Below, piece by piece: positions 11,236-30,365 of a stretch of DNA of 33,680 bases. The notes under the pieces were generated by a model. It was not told where the DNA came from. It saw nothing but the letters and a program-made list of their open reading frames with translations, and searched no databases. Numbering within the stretch: position 1 is the first letter of the stretch; each line of letters starts with the position of its first letter. The DNA comes from Kiritimatiellia bacterium (GTDB lineage: Bacteria; Verrucomicrobiota; Kiritimatiellia; RFP12; UBA1067). Location: the NCBI GenBank assembly GCA_017962315.1, contig JAGCVN010000090.1:1-33680 (forward strand), written 5' to 3'. The position numbers and the translations under genes were made by a program.

Positions 11236-11265
11236 TTGCTTTGTACGGAAACCATGTGGTATAAA
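11236..11265 (+). promoter_or_regulatory. Putative extended -10 promoter of the DUF4838 cluster
   Basis: TATAAA at 11260-11265 is preceded by TGG (an extended -10, TGnTATAAA). A weak TTGCTT -35 lies 18 bases upstream at 11236-11241. It sits 27 bases upstream of the ATG at 11292, which has a good GGGGAG ribosome site. A promoter leaning on an extended -10 fits a regulated cluster. Confidence 0.5.
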
Positions 11266-11291
11266 GTCCGCAGATTTTACGGGGAGAACAA

Positions 11292-13769
11292 ATGGGGTTC
11301 ATCGATCGACACGTTGGCTGGCCTATTCTGCTTATCGCGTTCCTTCATGTATGGAGCGTTTGGGCGGCGGAGGTCGTCATTGACAGAGGTTCCGAGATCG
11401 TTCTGCCCGAAGGTGCGCCGTATGCCACGCGGCTGGCGGCGGAAGAATTGAACTTTTTTTTGAAGGGCGTGTTGGGGGAACCGCTTCCCGTTGTTACGCG
11501 GTGCGCGGTGGACAAGACATCGATTATACTTGGCGGTCAGAACAGGTATGTAGATGGTTATCTGGTTGACGTACGCGGCGGTGTCGTACGAATCATCGGA
11601 AATGACGCCGACGTCGCCGACGTCGCGGTAACATCGCATCTCCCTGACGAGGCACCTTGGCAACCCTGCTTTCAAAGAGGCACGCTTTTTGGCGTGTACG
11701 CATTCCTGGAACGTTTTGCCGGTGTGCGGATGTATTTTCCCGGCGAACTCGGAACGTGTGTACCCAGGGCGGAACGGATCGTTGTGCCTGAGGGATGCAT
11801 TGAAGAGACGCCTGTGTTTGCGGTACGCCGGTACGGCTATGCCGATGGTACCGTCGCAAAAGAGATGCTCTCCGGTATGGACGAGATTTCCTTCAAGCGG
11901 CTCAATTGGTATCGTCTTAGGATGGAGACGGAGCATCTCGCCTGTTGTCACGGCGCGAAGACGCACTGCCTTTCCCCGGCGACGTGGGAAGCAATCTACA
12001 CAAACGCCTGTATGCTGTTCGCGGAAGGGAAGGGAACGGTGTTCGATGCGATGCCGAAAGACGGTTTCACATGGCTTCGTCACTGTACATGCGCGTGGTG
12101 TGAAGCGAACATTCCGTTTTCCGATACGGACACCGGTTTTGCGACCGATCTTGTCTGGCGGCGCACAGTCGAACTTGCGAACCGGCTCAAGGCGAAGTTC
12201 CCTGCGGCCCGCGTCTCGCAGATGTCGTATATTCCATACGTGCGTATCCCGACAAACGAGATCCCCGATAACGTCGATGTGTTTGTTGCCCGCCGCGGAC
12301 CGTGGGCGGAGGGGACAGAAATCGGCGAACGCGAGAAGGCGGATGTTCGCCGCTGGTACACGAAACTCGGACGAAAGGTCTCACTTTGGAACTATCCTGA
12401 CAAGGTAGACTGCTGGAATCTGGCGATGAAAGACATTCCGCAAGTCGCTCCACGCGCATGGGCGCGATATTATCGAGCCGTCGCACCGTATGTCACGGGG
12501 GCGTTCGCCGAGAGCGAGTCCGACCATTGGGTCTACAACTATCTCAACTACTATGTGTTCTCGCGCCTGTGCTGGAATCCGGAATTGGACATCGAAACGA
12601 TGCTTGCCGAACATCACCGTCTCATGTTCGGTGCGGCATCGAACGAGATGGCGGAGTTCTTCGACACGCTGGAGTCATGCTGGATGGAGGTTGTTTCAAA
12701 GCCGTACGACACGCCGCTCGGTCCGGGTGTTTGCAAAGCGCCGACAGAAGAAGAATTGCGCGAAAAGATCTACCCGCCTGCCGTGCTTATGCGATTGGAT
12801 TCGCTCCTCCGCGAAGCAGAGGCGAAGGTCGGACGCGGGTCTGTGGAGGCTCGGCGTATCGCGCTCTTCCGGCGCGAATATTTCGCGCCGCTTGCCTCCA
12901 GAATGTCGCCGATCCTGCGCGTAGGACTCATCGCCGACATCCACATCGGCGACAACAACGATGCCGCCGGCCTTCGACAGGCATTGCGTTTTTTCGATGC
13001 GAAGAAAGCCGATGTCGTACTCGCGTCGGGGGACTTGACCGACCTCGGACTTCTCTCCGAACTCAAGGAAATCGCAACCGCGTGGAATGAAGTGTTTCCC
13101 GATAACCGCCGTTCAGACGGCGGAACGGTTTTACGGCTCTTCCACTATGGCGATCACGACACGGAACTCAATTTCAAGGTGCGTCAACGCGAAGTCGTCG
13201 CCAAGGGGCGCTGGGTGGACTATATCCCGCATATTGGTGTCGATATCGCGTGGGAACGAGCCTTCGGCGAACGTTTTGAACCGATCGTGCGTCGTACGGT
13301 GAAAGACTGCGAATTTACGCTCGTTCATTTTCTGCCTGAAAATCTCAAAACCCGTTTCCCACAACGGATTCCGCCGCCCGGAAAGGCGAGAATGCACATT
13401 TTCTCTCAGCATCGCGTTTATCGCGGTTTTTTCGCTCGTTCCGGTTGTGGTGACGAAATGTCGTGGGATGACGGAACCTCGCTCGCCTTCGTCACAAATG
13501 TTCCGAACCTTGTTGCCGTCTGTGGGCACGCCCATATTTCGGCCGGCAATGACACGTCCTTCCATCGTGGCGAGAATGGTTTTGCCGCAATGGCGGTTCC
13601 GTCGCTGTTCTACCAGATCGAGACGTGGCTTCCGAAGGTGAAGACCGACCACGGTTCGCATCAGGCTCTTTTCCTGACGGCAGCCGGCGATAGAATCGTG
13701 GTCGAACGTCTGGATGTCAGGAATGACAGGAAAGTGGGAGGGGATTTCGTACATGTTTTTAACGACTGA
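11292..13769 (+). CDS. Exported DUF4838 glycoside-hydrolase-like protein fused to a metallophosphoesterase domain
   Basis: An 825-residue protein with a signal peptide or membrane anchor (residues 1-26, ending VWAA). Residues 27-175 resemble the GH67-type N-terminal domain (ATRLAAEELNFFLKGVLGE ... GVYAFLERFAGVRMYFPGE). Residues about 195-460 match the DUF4838 pattern: the Cys cluster HCTCAWC at 264-270, then VELANRLKAKFP, and a terminal YVFSRLCWNP...EHHRLMFG. From residue 542 a calcineurin-like phosphoesterase begins: Asp549/His551 (ADIHIGD), Gly580-Asp581 (ASGDLTD), then YGDHD at 619-623 where GNHD/E is usual, and GHAH at 745-748. Replacement of the Asn ligand by Asp621 is notable. It is the first gene of a cluster with a regulator 11 bases downstream and a transporter further on. 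Domain calls are by motif; substrates are unknown. Confidence 0.8.
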   Translation: MGFIDRHVGWPILLIAFLHVWSVWAAEVVIDRGSEIVLPEGAPYATRLAAEELNFFLKGVLGEPLPVVTRCAVDKTSIILGGQNRYVDGYLVDVRGGVVRIIGNDADVADVAVTSHLPDEAPWQPCFQRGTLFGVYAFLERFAGVRMYFPGELGTCVPRAERIVVPEGCIEETPVFAVRRYGYADGTVAKEMLSGMDEISFKRLNWYRLRMETEHLACCHGAKTHCLSPATWEAIYTNACMLFAEGKGTVFDAMPKDGFTWLRHCTCAWCEANIPFSDTDTGFATDLVWRRTVELANRLKAKFPAARVSQMSYIPYVRIPTNEIPDNVDVFVARRGPWAEGTEIGEREKADVRRWYTKLGRKVSLWNYPDKVDCWNLAMKDIPQVAPRAWARYYRAVAPYVTGAFAESESDHWVYNYLNYYVFSRLCWNPELDIETMLAEHHRLMFGAASNEMAEFFDTLESCWMEVVSKPYDTPLGPGVCKAPTEEELREKIYPPAVLMRLDSLLREAEAKVGRGSVEARRIALFRREYFAPLASRMSPILRVGLIADIHIGDNNDAAGLRQALRFFDAKKADVVLASGDLTDLGLLSELKEIATAWNEVFPDNRRSDGGTVLRLFHYGDHDTELNFKVRQREVVAKGRWVDYIPHIGVDIAWERAFGERFEPIVRRTVKDCEFTLVHFLPENLKTRFPQRIPPPGKARMHIFSQHRVYRGFFARSGCGDEMSWDDGTSLAFVTNVPNLVAVCGHAHISAGNDTSFHRGENGFAAMAVPSLFYQIETWLPKVKTDHGSHQALFLTAAGDRIVVERLDVRNDRKVGGDFVHVFND

Positions 13770-13780
13770 GAAGGGGTACT

Positions 13781-14869
13781 ATGGATAACAGTTTTCTGGA
13801 TCGTTTTCAATTCACACCGAATGGTACCATGACATTTGCAGATGCGTTGTGCACGTTCCTCAAAGAAGAGATCGCCTATGGACATCTCAAGGCGGGTGAT
13901 CCCTTTCCGACGATTAAGGAACTTGCGGCTATGACCGGGCTTTCCTTCCGTGTGGCGCGCGGCGTGGTTGAGGAATTGGCGCGGGAAGGGTATGTCCATT
14001 CGCGTCCTCATGTAGGGACGATCATTCTGCCGCGAGAATTCACCGCCCTACACGGTCGTGTGCTTTTCGCATTGCCTGATGTGGATGCGTGCAGTTATCA
14101 CGTCACCATGATCGCGGATGTGCTCCGGCACAGGTTGGGCGCTGCGGGATATGCCTTTTCAACGGTCGTGTTTTCTTCGGACGAACAGATCGGACTCACG
14201 TTCCTGAAGCATGAATTGGTCCGTATCCCTGATGTCGTTATTGTCATCTATGGCACGAAAGCCGTCGGGAAGTGCCTTCGCGAGGCGGGCGCGAAAGGCG
14301 TGTTCATCTACGGGGATCCCCCGAAGGGAGAGGAAAGTCGATGGATTCGGTTTTCAGCGGAAGAAGCTATTTCAAATTTTTCCCGGCATTGTGTCCGTAA
14401 TGGCGTTAAGCGTGTCGTGCAGGTACGTTTCGTCGGGAACGAAACGCCTGATGCGTGCCGGATGCTGGAACGAAATCGAATCAAGTGTACGTGGATGACG
14501 GTTCCTCGCATGGACGGCCTTGGTCGGTATGAAGGCATCGAGCGTTCCGCCTACAATATGTTCTTGAAGCTGTCTCGCGCCAGTTATCCCGATGTTTTCC
14601 TGTTCTGGGACGACTTCGTTGCCCAAGGTGCACTTACGGCATTTCTCAGACGGGGAGTGCGGATACCGGAAGACGTAAAGGTCGTGACGTTATCCAACAG
14701 GGGACTCGGCCCCGTCTATTCTGAACCGCTCACGCGCTTTGAGTGCGACGCTTCGGAGGCCGGTGAAAAAATATCCGCCTACGCGCTTTCTCTTCTTGCG
14801 AAGGGAAGGGTGCCGCCGACACCCGTTATCACGCCGTACTATATTTTTGGATGTACGTTCCCGTACTGA
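13781..14869 (+). CDS. GntR-type transcriptional regulator with LacI-like sugar-binding domain
   Basis: A 362-residue regulator. Residues about 18-85 form the GntR winged helix-turn-helix: LCTFLKEEIAYGHLKAGDPFPTIKELA, then GLSFRVARGVVEELAREGYVHSRPHVGTII. From about residue 92 (GRVLFALPDVDACSYH) to the end it looks like a periplasmic-binding-protein/LacI-type effector domain, with the late PDVFLFWDDFVAQGALTAFLRRGVRIPEDVKVV segment typical of such sensors. This is the AraR-like architecture, in which a sugar or glycoside releases the protein from its operator (family knowledge). It starts 11 bases after the DUF4838-phosphoesterase gene, so it probably controls its own operon. No clear operator palindrome was identified near 11240-11290. 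Confidence 0.88.
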   Translation: MDNSFLDRFQFTPNGTMTFADALCTFLKEEIAYGHLKAGDPFPTIKELAAMTGLSFRVARGVVEELAREGYVHSRPHVGTIILPREFTALHGRVLFALPDVDACSYHVTMIADVLRHRLGAAGYAFSTVVFSSDEQIGLTFLKHELVRIPDVVIVIYGTKAVGKCLREAGAKGVFIYGDPPKGEESRWIRFSAEEAISNFSRHCVRNGVKRVVQVRFVGNETPDACRMLERNRIKCTWMTVPRMDGLGRYEGIERSAYNMFLKLSRASYPDVFLFWDDFVAQGALTAFLRRGVRIPEDVKVVTLSNRGLGPVYSEPLTRFECDASEAGEKISAYALSLLAKGRVPPTPVITPYYIFGCTFPY

Positions 14870-14914: not shown

Positions 14915-14998
14915 TAAATCGTTTTTGGTTGTGAAACCCTATCGACGGCAGGCGTGCTGTGTGCGGGAATGTCTGTCGAAAGAGAAAGGAGACTTGAC

Positions 14999-15976
14999 AT
15001 GGCAAGATATCTTGATCCGAAGGCCGATTTGACCTTCAAGAAGATTTTCGGCGAACATTCTGACCTGCTGGCGAGCCTTTTGAACGCGCTTCTGCCCCTT
15101 CCGCAAGATAGCAGGATTGACTTCGTCGAATATCTCACGCCCGAAGTCGTGCCTGATGACCCTCTCCACAAGGACAGTATCGTGGATGTCCGTTGTAGGG
15201 ATCAGTTGGGACGGCAGTTCGTCGTGGAGATGCAGATGATCTGGACGGCTGACTACAATCAGCGTGTCCTATTCAACGCGGCGAAGGCTTACGTAAGGCA
15301 ACTTCCCGCGGGAGGCGAATATCGTGATCTTAAGACGGTCTATTCGCTGAACCTCATCAACGAAGTCATCAATTCCGACATCCCGGATTATTACCATTAT
15401 TACCTGCTTGAACATAGCAAATACAAGGGTAGAACGATAGACGGAATGCAGATTATCTTCGTCGAGCTTCCAAAGTTCACCCCAAAAAACTATAGCGAGA
15501 AGAAGATGAAGGTACTGTGGCTGAGGTTTCTGACCGAGATTAACGAGACTACGAGGAAGGCACCGGCGGAACTTGAAGCAGACCCCGATGTGAAGAAGGC
15601 GCTCGACATGGTTGAAGAATCTGCGCTGGATGACGCCGAGAGGGCACGATACGACGGGTTCATCGACTGGCTTCGCCGAGAACGTGGACGGGCTAGACGC
15701 GAGAAAGAATACAACGAAAAGGTTGCGCAACTTAAAACTCTGGAAGCGGAACGCGACGCGGCTACGGCGGAACGCGACGCGGCTACGGCGGAACGCGACG
15801 CGGCTACGGCGGAACGCGACGCGGCTACGGCGGAACGCGACGCCGAAAAGAAACGTGCTGATATGGCGATGGAGAAATTGCGAAAGACGGCCCGCAATTT
15901 GAGGGCGATGGGGCTGGACACCGAACAGATTTCGATGGCGGTCGGGTTGACAGCCGCCGAAATCGATGCCCTTTAA
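14999..15976 (+). CDS. Rpn-family PD-(D/E)XK nuclease / putative transposase with heptad-repeat coiled coil
   Basis: A 325-residue member of the Rpn (recombination-promoting nuclease, transposase_31/PD-(D/E)XK) group. Typical features: the N-terminus ARYLDPKADLTFKKIFGEH, the nuclease core with Asp of SIVDVRC and the VVEMQM strand (the D...ExQ pattern), and the late ARNLRAMGLDTEQISMAVGL helix-turn segment seen at the end of many family members. The start at 14999 is set by AAAGGAG seven bases upstream; an in-frame ATG at 14954 lacks a ribosome site. Residues 250-282 are four exact AERDAAT heptads plus a partial fifth, encoded by identical 21-bp units, followed by a charged coil. It sits inside a sugar-use cluster with its own strong promoter, 24 bases before the transporter. 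No terminal inverted repeats were seen around it. Confidence 0.87.
   Translation: MARYLDPKADLTFKKIFGEHSDLLASLLNALLPLPQDSRIDFVEYLTPEVVPDDPLHKDSIVDVRCRDQLGRQFVVEMQMIWTADYNQRVLFNAAKAYVRQLPAGGEYRDLKTVYSLNLINEVINSDIPDYYHYYLLEHSKYKGRTIDGMQIIFVELPKFTPKNYSEKKMKVLWLRFLTEINETTRKAPAELEADPDVKKALDMVEESALDDAERARYDGFIDWLRRERGRARREKEYNEKVAQLKTLEAERDAATAERDAATAERDAATAERDAATAERDAEKKRADMAMEKLRKTARNLRAMGLDTEQISMAVGLTAAEIDAL
15746..15844 (+). repeat. 21-bp in-frame tandem repeat (minisatellite), about 4.7 copies
   Basis: Four identical copies of a 21-bp unit (GCG GAA CGC GAC GCG GCT ACG) followed by a partial fifth, GCG GAA CGC GAC GC. Each unit encodes one heptad (AERDAAT) of a predicted coiled coil in the Rpn-family protein. 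Exact identity at the DNA level, including synonymous positions, indicates recent expansion. Confidence 0.97.
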
Positions 15977-15999: not shown

Positions 16000-17433
16000 A
16001 TGGATGTGGACAGGTTGACGTGGACGGACCGTATCGGATTCGGCGCGGGGGATTTCGCGCAGAACCTCGTGTATGCGGCGGTCGGCAGTTATCTGCTTTT
16101 TTTCTACACGGACGTAATAGACCTTCCCCCGGCCATTGCAGCGTCGGTGTTTTTTGTTGTGCAGATTGTGGATACAGCTTGTGAGCCGTTTGTCGGCGTG
16201 TTTATCGACCGGGTCAATCCGCCTTGGGGCAAGTACCGGTCGTATCTCCTTCTTGCCGGATTGCCGCTCGTACTCTCCGCCGTGTTGTGTTTTACCCATC
16301 TGCCCGTGGAAGGTGTCTTCGTGTGGAAAATCTTGTACGCCTACGCGGCATATGCGGGGTTCAGTCTGCTATTTGCAGTCGTGAATGTCGCTTACGGGGC
16401 GCTCAACGCCTCGCTTTCGCGAGAGACGGACGAGATCACCCTTCTCACTACCGTTCGAATTTTTATGGCGAATGCCGGTTGTCTCGCCGCGATGGTGGGG
16501 ATTCCTCTCTTTGTCGCTTCGTTCGCGAGTGAAAGGGTGTTGCCCTGGCGCATGATGCTGTTCATGGGGTTTGGGATGTTGCCATCCTTCGTCTTTATGC
16601 CGTTCCTTCCGGCACTCAGACGGTTTTTCGGTAAAAGAAACCTTTTTTTCGTGTTCGCATCCGTCGCCGTCGCCGGTATGGCCGCACTCTACGTCTTGAG
16701 CCGGTTATGGCGTGTTGCGGATCATCCTGGACTGATTTATGCCGCACAGTTTGTAAAGGCATCGGGTATTATCGTTGCAACGGGGTATATGTGGACGTTT
16801 GTCCCGGAGGTGATCGCGTATTCGGAACATCGAACGGGGCGGCGTATGTCGGGGATCGTGAATGCCGTCATGGGGTGCTTCTGCCGGCTTGGAATGGCGT
16901 TCGGTAAAGTTCTTTCGGGGGGTGTCCTCGCCTGGACGGGATATCGAGCCGCCGTTGCAGAAGGGAAGATTTCTCTGCCGACAGAACCCCGCGCCTGGTT
17001 CTGGACGATGGTGGGACTCGCGACGCTTGCCGCCGCGTTACTTGTCTTTTCTTTTACTCGGATCCGGGAACGTGTGGTGATGGACGCGGCAGAGTCCGCT
17101 CTGGTGAAGGTGGGGGACTTGTGGCGGGAATTCTTCCGGAACGCGCCTCTTCGGCTTCTCTCGCTCTTCTTTGTGGTGGTGTTCGCCATGTTTTCGGTCG
17201 GTAACGCGGCGGGTGTGTATTTTATGAACGGGTTGGAAGAACAGCCACCGTCCGCAGGGGAGGGGATACGTTGGCTCGTCTGCATCATTCCTTCCCTCCT
17301 CCTTGCCGTTGCTGCGGCCGTCATCGCCCGTTATCCGCTTAGCGACGACCTTGTAGCCCGTCTTAATCGCGAAATCAGCGGCAAGTCCGCAGCCCGCGCC
17401 TTGCACGGGAATGAAAATGAGGATACGTTTTGA
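16000..17433 (+). CDS. GPH-family (MelB-type) sugar:cation symporter
   Basis: A 477-residue integral membrane protein with about 12 hydrophobic segments. It begins like the glycoside-pentoside-hexuronide:cation symporter family: DRIGFGAGDFAQNLVYAAVGSYLLFFYTDVI, then DTACEPFVGVFIDRVNPPWGKYRSYLL, matching the MelB motif in which the Asp and Arg/Lys residues of helices II-IV bind the cation. The central EVIAYSEHRTGRRMSGIVNAV is also family-typical. Known role: uptake of sugars, glycosides or uronides with Na+ or H+; the substrate here is unknown but probably the product of the DUF4838 protein (inference). The ribosome site is weak, so expression may depend on the Rpn gene 24 bases upstream. Confidence 0.88.
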   Translation: MDVDRLTWTDRIGFGAGDFAQNLVYAAVGSYLLFFYTDVIDLPPAIAASVFFVVQIVDTACEPFVGVFIDRVNPPWGKYRSYLLLAGLPLVLSAVLCFTHLPVEGVFVWKILYAYAAYAGFSLLFAVVNVAYGALNASLSRETDEITLLTTVRIFMANAGCLAAMVGIPLFVASFASERVLPWRMMLFMGFGMLPSFVFMPFLPALRRFFGKRNLFFVFASVAVAGMAALYVLSRLWRVADHPGLIYAAQFVKASGIIVATGYMWTFVPEVIAYSEHRTGRRMSGIVNAVMGCFCRLGMAFGKVLSGGVLAWTGYRAAVAEGKISLPTEPRAWFWTMVGLATLAAALLVFSFTRIRERVVMDAAESALVKVGDLWREFFRNAPLRLLSLFFVVVFAMFSVGNAAGVYFMNGLEEQPPSAGEGIRWLVCIIPSLLLAVAAAVIARYPLSDDLVARLNREISGKSAARALHGNENEDTF

Positions 17434-28334: not shown

Positions 28335-30365
28335 CTACCGCGTTTCCCGTTCCGGGAAGAAGATGTACCCGCCATTCCACGCGGGAACGGGGGGCAACGT
28401 GACGAGGACATCGGTGTCGTCGCGCACAATGTCGATCGTCACGTCTTTCGTGTCGAATGATGACCAGACGGCTTTTTTAACATCCGCCGGTACGCCGCGT
28501 AGACGCAACTTCACGGGTGGCGTGCGGCCGATCGACGTGTTCACGAACACGACGGAAGCGAGCGTGCCGTCTTTGCGTACACGAGGCTGGACGAACGAGA
28601 GCGTGGGCGTTTCAAGAAGAACCGGCGACTTGCCTTGCGAAGCCCAGTCGCAGAGCCGGTGCAACTGGATCACGCGGTCGCCTGAGGCTCGCGAGAGCGT
28701 CGCCGTGAACGCATGGGTCCCGAACACCACGCGGCGGCGTCCGTCCTTCGCCTCGGACATCACCGCCGCATATCCCGGCAGGTCCAGCGGCTCGTTGTTC
28801 GCATCGCTGTAGTATTCGGAAATGGCAATTGCCCCCGGCGCAGGCTTCAGAAAGAGCGTCTGCCCCGAGGCCGGCGTCTCGCGCGCCTTGAAACCCTCGT
28901 TCACGGGAACGGGCAGAAAACGTTCGCGCAGGTTCCCGTTGGCCGCGACGCAGCCCGTGATGCCGATTTCCGCACCGTAGCCGGCCTTGAAGAGCATTTC
29001 CGCCGCCGCGCCGTCGATCAGTATGTCTTCGGAAAGAAGTCGTGTCACAGCCTCCTTCCCTGCATCGACGGCCTCCTTCGCGGCGGTCGTGGTGACGATA
29101 CGCGCAAGGTCTGACCGCGCACCGGGTATGAGCGGTTTGAGCGGAAGCGAAGACGTCTGCAACTGGATGGGGGGATCGCCCGCAAACCCATAGCCGCACC
29201 GCGCCGCGCCTTCGTTTAACGCCACGTAACGCTTCATCATCGCCGCGTTACGGGCAAGCGGGGCGAGCAGCTCGTCGCCGTACCATTCCGGCGTCTCGAA
29301 TCCGGCGTCCATGATCAGCGCGGAGATGGCGTTCATGCCCTGTGCAAGCGCCTCCAGCGCTTCCAGAAGCACGCCCTGTCCCGTGCGGCAGGCGAAGGAA
29401 CGCGGAGACGACTCGATTTCCGGGCAGATGCGGTCGATGAACGGCAGCGGACCAATCGTGTCGATCTGGAGCGCCAGCGTGTACGCTTTGCCGATTTGGG
29501 CGCGTGCGTCGTGGTCGTAGTACGCGCCCGCACCGGGGCGCATCCCCACGGGGAGCCCTGTCGCCGCATAGTCTGCCTCGTAAAGGAGCCGGTGTTCGGG
29601 GAAGTAGCGTCCCGGCTGCTGCTGGCACATGCGCGTCTCCGGCGATGCGGCGTGGACGGCTTCGGCGATCACGCGCACGAGTTCGGCCTCGCCCTCGAAC
29701 GCGAACGAGCGCCAGCGCGCGGCAAGCGCGTCGTCGTCCTTCATTTCCGCGATTAGTTGCTTGCGCGTGCGTGCCTTCCCCTCCTTCTTCGCGAACTGTC
29801 CAAGGCAATATTCGCAGTGGCATCCCCAGCCGGGACCTCCGTGGTTGACGATGCGGATGTCGTCGTCGATCCACACGGAGTAGGGACGCATGGCGGCGGC
29901 ATAGAGCGTGGCCATCTCTTTCATGTACGCGAGGAAGCCCGGCGCACGGAAACAGTTGCAACCCTTCGCCACCGCCCCGTTCGCCGACGTGAATCCTTGC
30001 CACGTCATCCCCGTGTTGTCCGCGTAACGAAGGAAGGCGTCTCCGTGGCCGATCGTGGCCTGAATCTGGAGCGACGGCAGAATGCCGATCTTGCGCAGTT
30101 CCGCTGACGCCTTCGCAAGGCGGGCGACGGAGGCGCGGTGTTCCTCCATCTTCGGGAAACTGATACCCGTGGAGAACCACACCTCGTCAATGCCGGCGCG
30201 GTGCTTCGCGAATTGCGCAAGCAACCCGTTCCACACCTCTTCCCTGTCGGTATGCGGCTTCCGGAGGCGGATCGCGGAGAACGGGATGTCGGCGGTCGCG
30301 GGCGTAGACGAAAAACATCCGCACAGCACCGAAGCCGCGATGGCAAATCCAAGTGTCGGTTTCAT
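28335..30365 (-). CDS. Predicted lipoprotein with glycoside-hydrolase-like barrel, family not recognised
   Basis: A 676-residue protein with a lipoprotein-like signal (LCGC, lipidated Cys17; Cys at -2 is unusual, so ordinary secretion is possible). The middle reads like a TIM barrel: IDEVWFSTGISFPKMEEH (about 59-76), ILPSLQIQATIGHGD, SVWIDDDIRIVNHGG (about 163-177), then a Cys cluster CHCEYC (182-187) also typical of DUF4838-like enzymes, and PGAGAYYDHDARAQIG. The Asp run at 167-169 is a candidate catalytic or metal site. The last 200 residues look like beta-rich accessory domains ending WNGGYIFFP. It starts 15 bases after the glutamate symporter gene, so the two are probably co-transcribed. 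Substrate unknown. Confidence 0.6.
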   Translation of the reverse strand: MKPTLGFAIAASVLCGCFSSTPATADIPFSAIRLRKPHTDREEVWNGLLAQFAKHRAGIDEVWFSTGISFPKMEEHRASVARLAKASAELRKIGILPSLQIQATIGHGDAFLRYADNTGMTWQGFTSANGAVAKGCNCFRAPGFLAYMKEMATLYAAAMRPYSVWIDDDIRIVNHGGPGWGCHCEYCLGQFAKKEGKARTRKQLIAEMKDDDALAARWRSFAFEGEAELVRVIAEAVHAASPETRMCQQQPGRYFPEHRLLYEADYAATGLPVGMRPGAGAYYDHDARAQIGKAYTLALQIDTIGPLPFIDRICPEIESSPRSFACRTGQGVLLEALEALAQGMNAISALIMDAGFETPEWYGDELLAPLARNAAMMKRYVALNEGAARCGYGFAGDPPIQLQTSSLPLKPLIPGARSDLARIVTTTAAKEAVDAGKEAVTRLLSEDILIDGAAAEMLFKAGYGAEIGITGCVAANGNLRERFLPVPVNEGFKARETPASGQTLFLKPAPGAIAISEYYSDANNEPLDLPGYAAVMSEAKDGRRRVVFGTHAFTATLSRASGDRVIQLHRLCDWASQGKSPVLLETPTLSFVQPRVRKDGTLASVVFVNTSIGRTPPVKLRLRGVPADVKKAVWSSFDTKDVTIDIVRDDTDVLVTLPPVPAWNGGYIFFPERETR

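Follow-up and report, generated by a model that had tools for sequence, protein, structure and literature searches.

A DUF4838 glycosidase-like protein fused to a metallophosphoesterase with a GDHD motif in a family of Kiritimatiellae

Introduction

Does an open reading frame that joins a glycoside-hydrolase-like DUF4838 part to a calcineurin-like phosphoesterase encode a genuine fusion protein, and if so, what would such a protein do? The question is raised by a gene in a 33,680-nucleotide stretch of Kiritimatiellia DNA (hereafter the window), which makes up all of contig C21 in a draft genome of 3.26 Mb. The nearest named relatives of this genome are Kiritimatiellae MAGs, several of which are labelled rumen. 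A preliminary description, made from the sequence alone, had proposed that the protein might release sugar and phosphate together from a phosphorylated glycan. I found no description of a DUF4838-metallophosphoesterase (MPE) fusion in a literature search that was thin on subscription journals, and no paper in that search that linked calcineurin-like phosphoesterases to polysaccharide utilization and glycoside hydrolases.

Architecture of the fusion protein

The fusion gene is a single reading frame (11292–13769; all coordinates are on the + strand unless stated), open over 825 codons, and encodes the whole 825-residue protein. A putative sigma-70-like promoter (TTGCTT-18-TATAAA, 11236–11265), near-identical in the same-genus copy L035, precedes it, as does a GGGGAG that may serve as ribosome-binding site (11281–11286); an operator palindrome common to the loci was looked for upstream of the gene, and none was found. 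The protein begins with a predicted Sec-type signal peptide (residues 1–26, 11292–11369), a hydrophobic stretch with a VWA-AE end, followed by a GH67/84/115-like DUF4838 part at residues ∼27–537 and the MPE at residues ∼542–808.

The first part opens with an alpha/beta domain of the GH67/GH84/GH115 kind (residues 27–176, 11370–11819), assigned from secondary structure, Foldseek and a weak family-profile match to the GH67 structure 1k9d (E 1.8e-4). The Pfam family DUF4838 (PF16126) matches residues 226–458 (11967–12665) with 54.7 bits against a curated cut-off of 26.6, covering only profile positions 95–325, and the part ends in C-terminal helices (residues 434–537, 12591–12902). The MPE domain (residues 542–808, 12915–13715), identified from Pfam, alignment, model and Foldseek, matches Metallophos (PF00149) over residues 542–749 with 25.0 bits against a curated cut-off of 21.5. 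The preliminary description had placed a GH67-type domain ahead of these two; both DUF4838 and Metallophos exceed their cut-offs, but Glyco_hydro_67N gave no Pfam match to the fusion protein, and the GH67 resemblance is weak. GH67C scored 24.4 in Pfam, under its cut-off of 27. The protein is therefore like the GH67 alpha-glucuronidases (PDB 1k9d, 1mqq) in a weak profile match of its N- and C-terminal parts and in fold, but lacks a GH67N match and has GH67C under cut-off, and GH84 and GH115 rank above GH67 among the Foldseek matches of the N-terminal part.

The full-length model has a mean pLDDT of 87 and a pTM of 0.83, is confident in each of the two parts and shows no long stretch of disorder between them; the signal-like start (residues 1–23) is a low-confidence segment. 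Modeled alone, the MPE reaches a pLDDT of 89.6 and a pTM of 0.91, so that the C-terminal 280 residues do fold as a phosphoesterase in the prediction. Foldseek relates this domain to GpdQ, purple acid phosphatase, Rv0805 and Mre11, all with probability 1.00, and sequence identity to the Foldseek matches is 9–16%. When the MPE profile was searched against PDB sequences, the sole match was the phosphodiesterase MJ0936, over the first 57 positions. Pfam, models and Foldseek together bear out the proposal of one exported polypeptide with two enzyme-like folds.

Occurrence and history of the fusion

I searched for full-length homologues in 192 related genomes, and complemented this with a peptide-pattern scan of the genomes of 84,980 species, which is sensitive to close relatives only. 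The same fusion recurs in no fewer than 11 further MAGs, all from this Kiritimatiellae family. Nine of the homologues align end to end by tblastn, in one frame and at 66–74% identity, while one copy (L017/L046) is broken by Ns and another (L018) is truncated at a contig end. That two genes were joined here by an assembly or sequencing error had been a concern, and every relative found is itself a MAG; however, the recurrence of the same join in 11 or more further genomes, in nine of which it is seen over the full length, excludes chance or a local error, and the full-length model is confident in both halves. This explanation was rejected, its probability being practically nil, and the fusion is real. 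Nor do sister genomes carry the two halves as adjacent genes, as an erroneous join would have it: sister loci lack the MPE altogether.

These sister loci comprise nine orthologues (L012, L014–L016, L019, L020, L023–L025) that are 65–72% identical over the N-terminal part and stop near residue 538, at the domain border. Where enough flanking sequence is available, the regulator gene begins within tens of bases downstream, and a search of these same loci found no separate MPE gene nearby. In a tree of 59 MPE rows, the fused MPE domains form one clade with support of 100/100. In the tree of the N-terminal part, fused and unfused rows are interleaved, such that four changes of the fused label are needed, at least three of them forced by well-supported branches. 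A single fusion followed by repeated loss or swap is consistent with both trees, and a single fusion with repeated loss is the simplest account of these sequences. Synonymous distances of the two halves can also disagree within a pair (0.70 and 0.30 for L037/L039), and the MPE domain may therefore have been moved by recombination between species as well as lost.

As many orthologues do without it, the MPE half is, on this distribution, a dispensable accessory and not a requirement. Joint release of sugar and phosphate, as first proposed, thus cannot be required for the sugar unit in which the gene lies. Both domains are under purifying selection, with dN/dS in five pairs of 0.10–0.16 for the N-terminal part and 0.14–0.27 for the MPE, the pair of the window and L035 having a dS above 1.2 and giving a rough value.

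The phosphoesterase site and its GDHD motif

Every motif residue listed for the MPE in the preliminary description is at its claimed position. In an alignment of 33 MPE domains, D549xH551 (12936–12944), GD580-581 (13029–13034), and G620, H622 and D623 of the GDHD motif (620–623, 13149–13160) are invariant; His707 (13410–13412) is present in all rows that cover the position, and GHAH 745–748 (13524–13535) was located in the same alignment. All 12 aligned fusions retain the metal-ligand motifs. The exception to the usual pattern is Asp621, at the place of the metal-ligand Asn of GNHD, where 29 of the 33 rows have Asp and four have Asn.

The altered motif is indeed there, but it is not peculiar to the fusion protein. 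In the MPE tree all D621-type rows group together, the branch that separates them having moderate support (85/90), and near relatives carrying GNHD fall outside this group. Most MPEs of the GDHD clade are stand-alone exported genes, and the whole clade has Asp, from which it follows that the Asn-to-Asp change is, on this phylogeny, older than the fusion. These stand-alone Kiritimatiellae proteins share ∼33–41% identity with the fused domain, and differ from it in being encoded separately, as proteins of ∼465–520 residues with an extra C-terminal region or of ∼920–940 residues. The window's own genome contains only one other GDHD member that could be found (contig C6, locus L050), alongside some ten other relatives from the subfamily that have GNHD or GNHE.

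Judging from the motif, Asp621 would be the equivalent of N97 in Rv0805. The Rv0805 N97A variant has been described as catalytically inactive (PMC3776917), and the Asn position therefore matters, although Ala at this position is not the same replacement as Asp. The signature of class III phosphodiesterases consists of D-x-H, GD, GNHD, H and GHxH (PMC4320098), of which the fusion MPE has everything except the Asn of GNHD. It thus resembles GpdQ glycerophosphodiesterase and Rv0805 in fold and in the motif order DxH-GD-GxHD-H-GHxH, but differs from these class III enzymes by its GDHD, by an identity of 11–15%, and by being fused, its activity being putative. A search of the literature on GDHD together with metallophosphoesterase or GNHD found no tested natural GDHD enzyme.

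Asp621 might be taken to render the MPE weak or dead, the domain then being a binding or structural module that replaces the C-terminal extensions of other DUF4838 proteins. Other DUF4838 homologues do carry different C-terminal extensions, by eye like carbohydrate-binding beta-sandwiches, the MPE is dispensable, and its top fold match in the PDB is GAP50 (3tgh), titled an inner membrane complex anchor. GAP50 is not known to be active. However, the GDHD clade has diverged for long and still retains every other metal-ligand and catalytic motif, and the MPE dN/dS of 0.14–0.27 argues against a dead site. A degenerate site is accordingly disfavoured, as a single clade has fixed the substitution and retains the remaining ligand motifs in full, and I regard a binding or structural role as improbable.

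A few further observations concern MPEs of this kind. Twelve distant MPE-profile matches in the phylum (L095, L096, L098–L102, L105–L109) yielded no GxHD motif in a pattern search. Four GDHD MPEs (L057, L058, L059, L060) make up the group of ∼920–940 residues, and in L057, the only one scanned, PHP matches the C-terminal region weakly, under the cut-off, so that the fusion there may include a further domain like a metal-dependent phosphoesterase.

The DUF4838 half

The fusion protein is related to DUF4838 (PF16126) by a Pfam match over the cut-off, by CxCxxC and DG motifs and by a barrel-like fold, but the match is partial and low-scoring, and an MPE is fused to it. Compared with other DUF4838 homologues, the whole clade, fused or not, also lacks a segment of ∼50 residues at the HPEY loop. 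Its glycosidase site may consequently be altered or absent, and its substrate may be unlike that of other DUF4838 homologues. A DUF4838 protein has been labelled CAZy GH163 in one paper (PMC9870897), and a GH163 enzyme from B. thetaiotaomicron acts on complex N-glycans, in which it cleaves GlcNAc-beta1,2-Man (PMC10154615); PDB sequence searches returned nothing recognisable as GH163.

Two acidic residues are candidates for catalysis: Asp257 (12060–12062), which follows a barrel strand and is invariant in 18 homologues, and Glu407 (12510–12512), located where a barrel strand ends in the model and near-invariant in the same set. Their conservation speaks against a DUF4838 part that is a non-catalytic glycan-binding scaffold with the MPE as sole enzyme, as does the fact that many orthologues consist of the N-terminal part alone in the same kind of sugar unit. 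The missing segment would fit such a scaffold, as would the far higher score of a full-strength DUF4838 protein in the same genome (354 bits, compared to 56 for the fusion protein); taken together, a scaffold seems quite improbable. Elsewhere in the window, a 676-residue protein (28335–30365, − strand) without a Pfam match has a CHCEYC motif reminiscent of CxCxxC in DUF4838.

Genomic context

The gene next to the fusion gene, conserved in the locus comparison, encodes a regulator with a GntR helix-turn-helix and a Peripla_BP_3 sensor (13781–14869). It is followed by a PD-(D/E)XK (PDDEXK_2) transposase-like gene (14954–15976), found otherwise only in the same-genus locus (L035/L070) among the loci compared, and by a GPH-type sugar symporter (MFS_2, 16000–17433), a usual member of the unit. 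The combination of enzyme, GntR/Peripla_BP_3 regulator and, usually, GPH symporter is common to fused and unfused species. It is not universal, as the symporter is unmatched in L036, L041, L042, L044 and L046, with L041 also lacking a regulator match. No phosphoglycan-indicating gene was found among the neighbours of the fusion gene.

Large repeat proteins, by eye resembling BspA-type leucine-rich repeat surface proteins, lie near the unit in six loci (L069, L070, L073, L077, L078, L079). Just upstream of the fusion gene, four loci (L071, L072, L073, L078) have a secreted FGE-sulfatase (SUMF1-like) protein, Pfam-confirmed in L072 only.

Several of the stand-alone GDHD MPEs, in a raw listing of neighbours, adjoin genes for the following: GH20 in the window's own genome (L050), GH31 (L064), GH2 (L057), GH127 and GH39 (L067), a GH5/GH2-like protein (L066) and a GlcNAc-epimerase-like protein (L055). 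Two others have, respectively, an enolase-superfamily gene (L054) and a GDPD gene (L061) nearby, and in L051 a DUF4838 gene is 38 bp away on the same strand. It is tentatively suggested that, in rumen Kiritimatiellae, MPEs of the GDHD clade may have come to dephosphorylate glycans in partnership with glycoside hydrolases, and that in one lineage such an MPE would have been fused to a DUF4838 glycosidase as a single phosphoglycan-degrading enzyme. Near three stand-alone MPEs, membrane-protein-like reading frames (L052:1085–2326, L054:6147–7190, L065:1923–2648) by eye recall HGSNAT-type acetyltransferases; the first, the only one scanned, has no Pfam match.

The context also bears on whether the MPE, if active, acts on glycans at all. 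It could be a phosphate-scavenging nucleotidase or phosphodiesterase, tethered by chance to a surface or periplasmic glycosidase. The nearest solved folds include the broad phosphodiesterases GpdQ and Rv0805, and the window genome (G000, 3.26 Mb) has 34 Metallophos loci, suggestive of broad phosphate-ester use; family members have 2 to 46 per genome, and genomes in a survey of the phylum mostly 3 to at least 25. However, the fusion sits in a sugar regulator-symporter unit, no phosphate-uptake gene was seen beside it in the window, and stand-alone relatives adjoin several glycoside hydrolase genes. Scavenging is therefore rather unlikely.

Proposed function

I propose, with a probability of about 0.5, that the protein is exported and works as a bifunctional enzyme within a sugar-catabolic unit, where it would both detach a phosphate (di)ester from a glycan and cleave that glycan. 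Its N-terminal part would be a GH67/84/115-like glycosidase of the DUF4838 family, as profile and fold indicate, and its C-terminal part a binuclear metallophosphoesterase akin to GpdQ, Rv0805 and the purple acid phosphatases, as indicated by fold and ligand motifs. The MPE would remove a phosphate ester or diester substituent, allowing the glycosidase to cut an otherwise resistant glycan, and the released sugar would be sensed by the GntR-type regulator and imported by the GPH symporter. Asp621 would serve as a metal ligand in place of Asn, as in the whole clade, with an active two-metal site kept. The MPE would be an accessory, joined once and then lost or exchanged on several occasions, presumably where no phosphate is carried by the substrate. 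Its presence in about a dozen species, with sisters repeatedly lacking it, suggests that phosphate removal is an optional step when glycans are digested.

If this is correct, the fusion protein would provide a testable enzyme for phosphate-substituted rumen glycans, open a divergent branch of DUF4838 to functional study for the first time, and offer a test from nature of Asp replacing the metal-binding Asn in binuclear phosphoesterases. The sister species with and without the phosphoesterase are ready-made pairs for a comparison of substrates.
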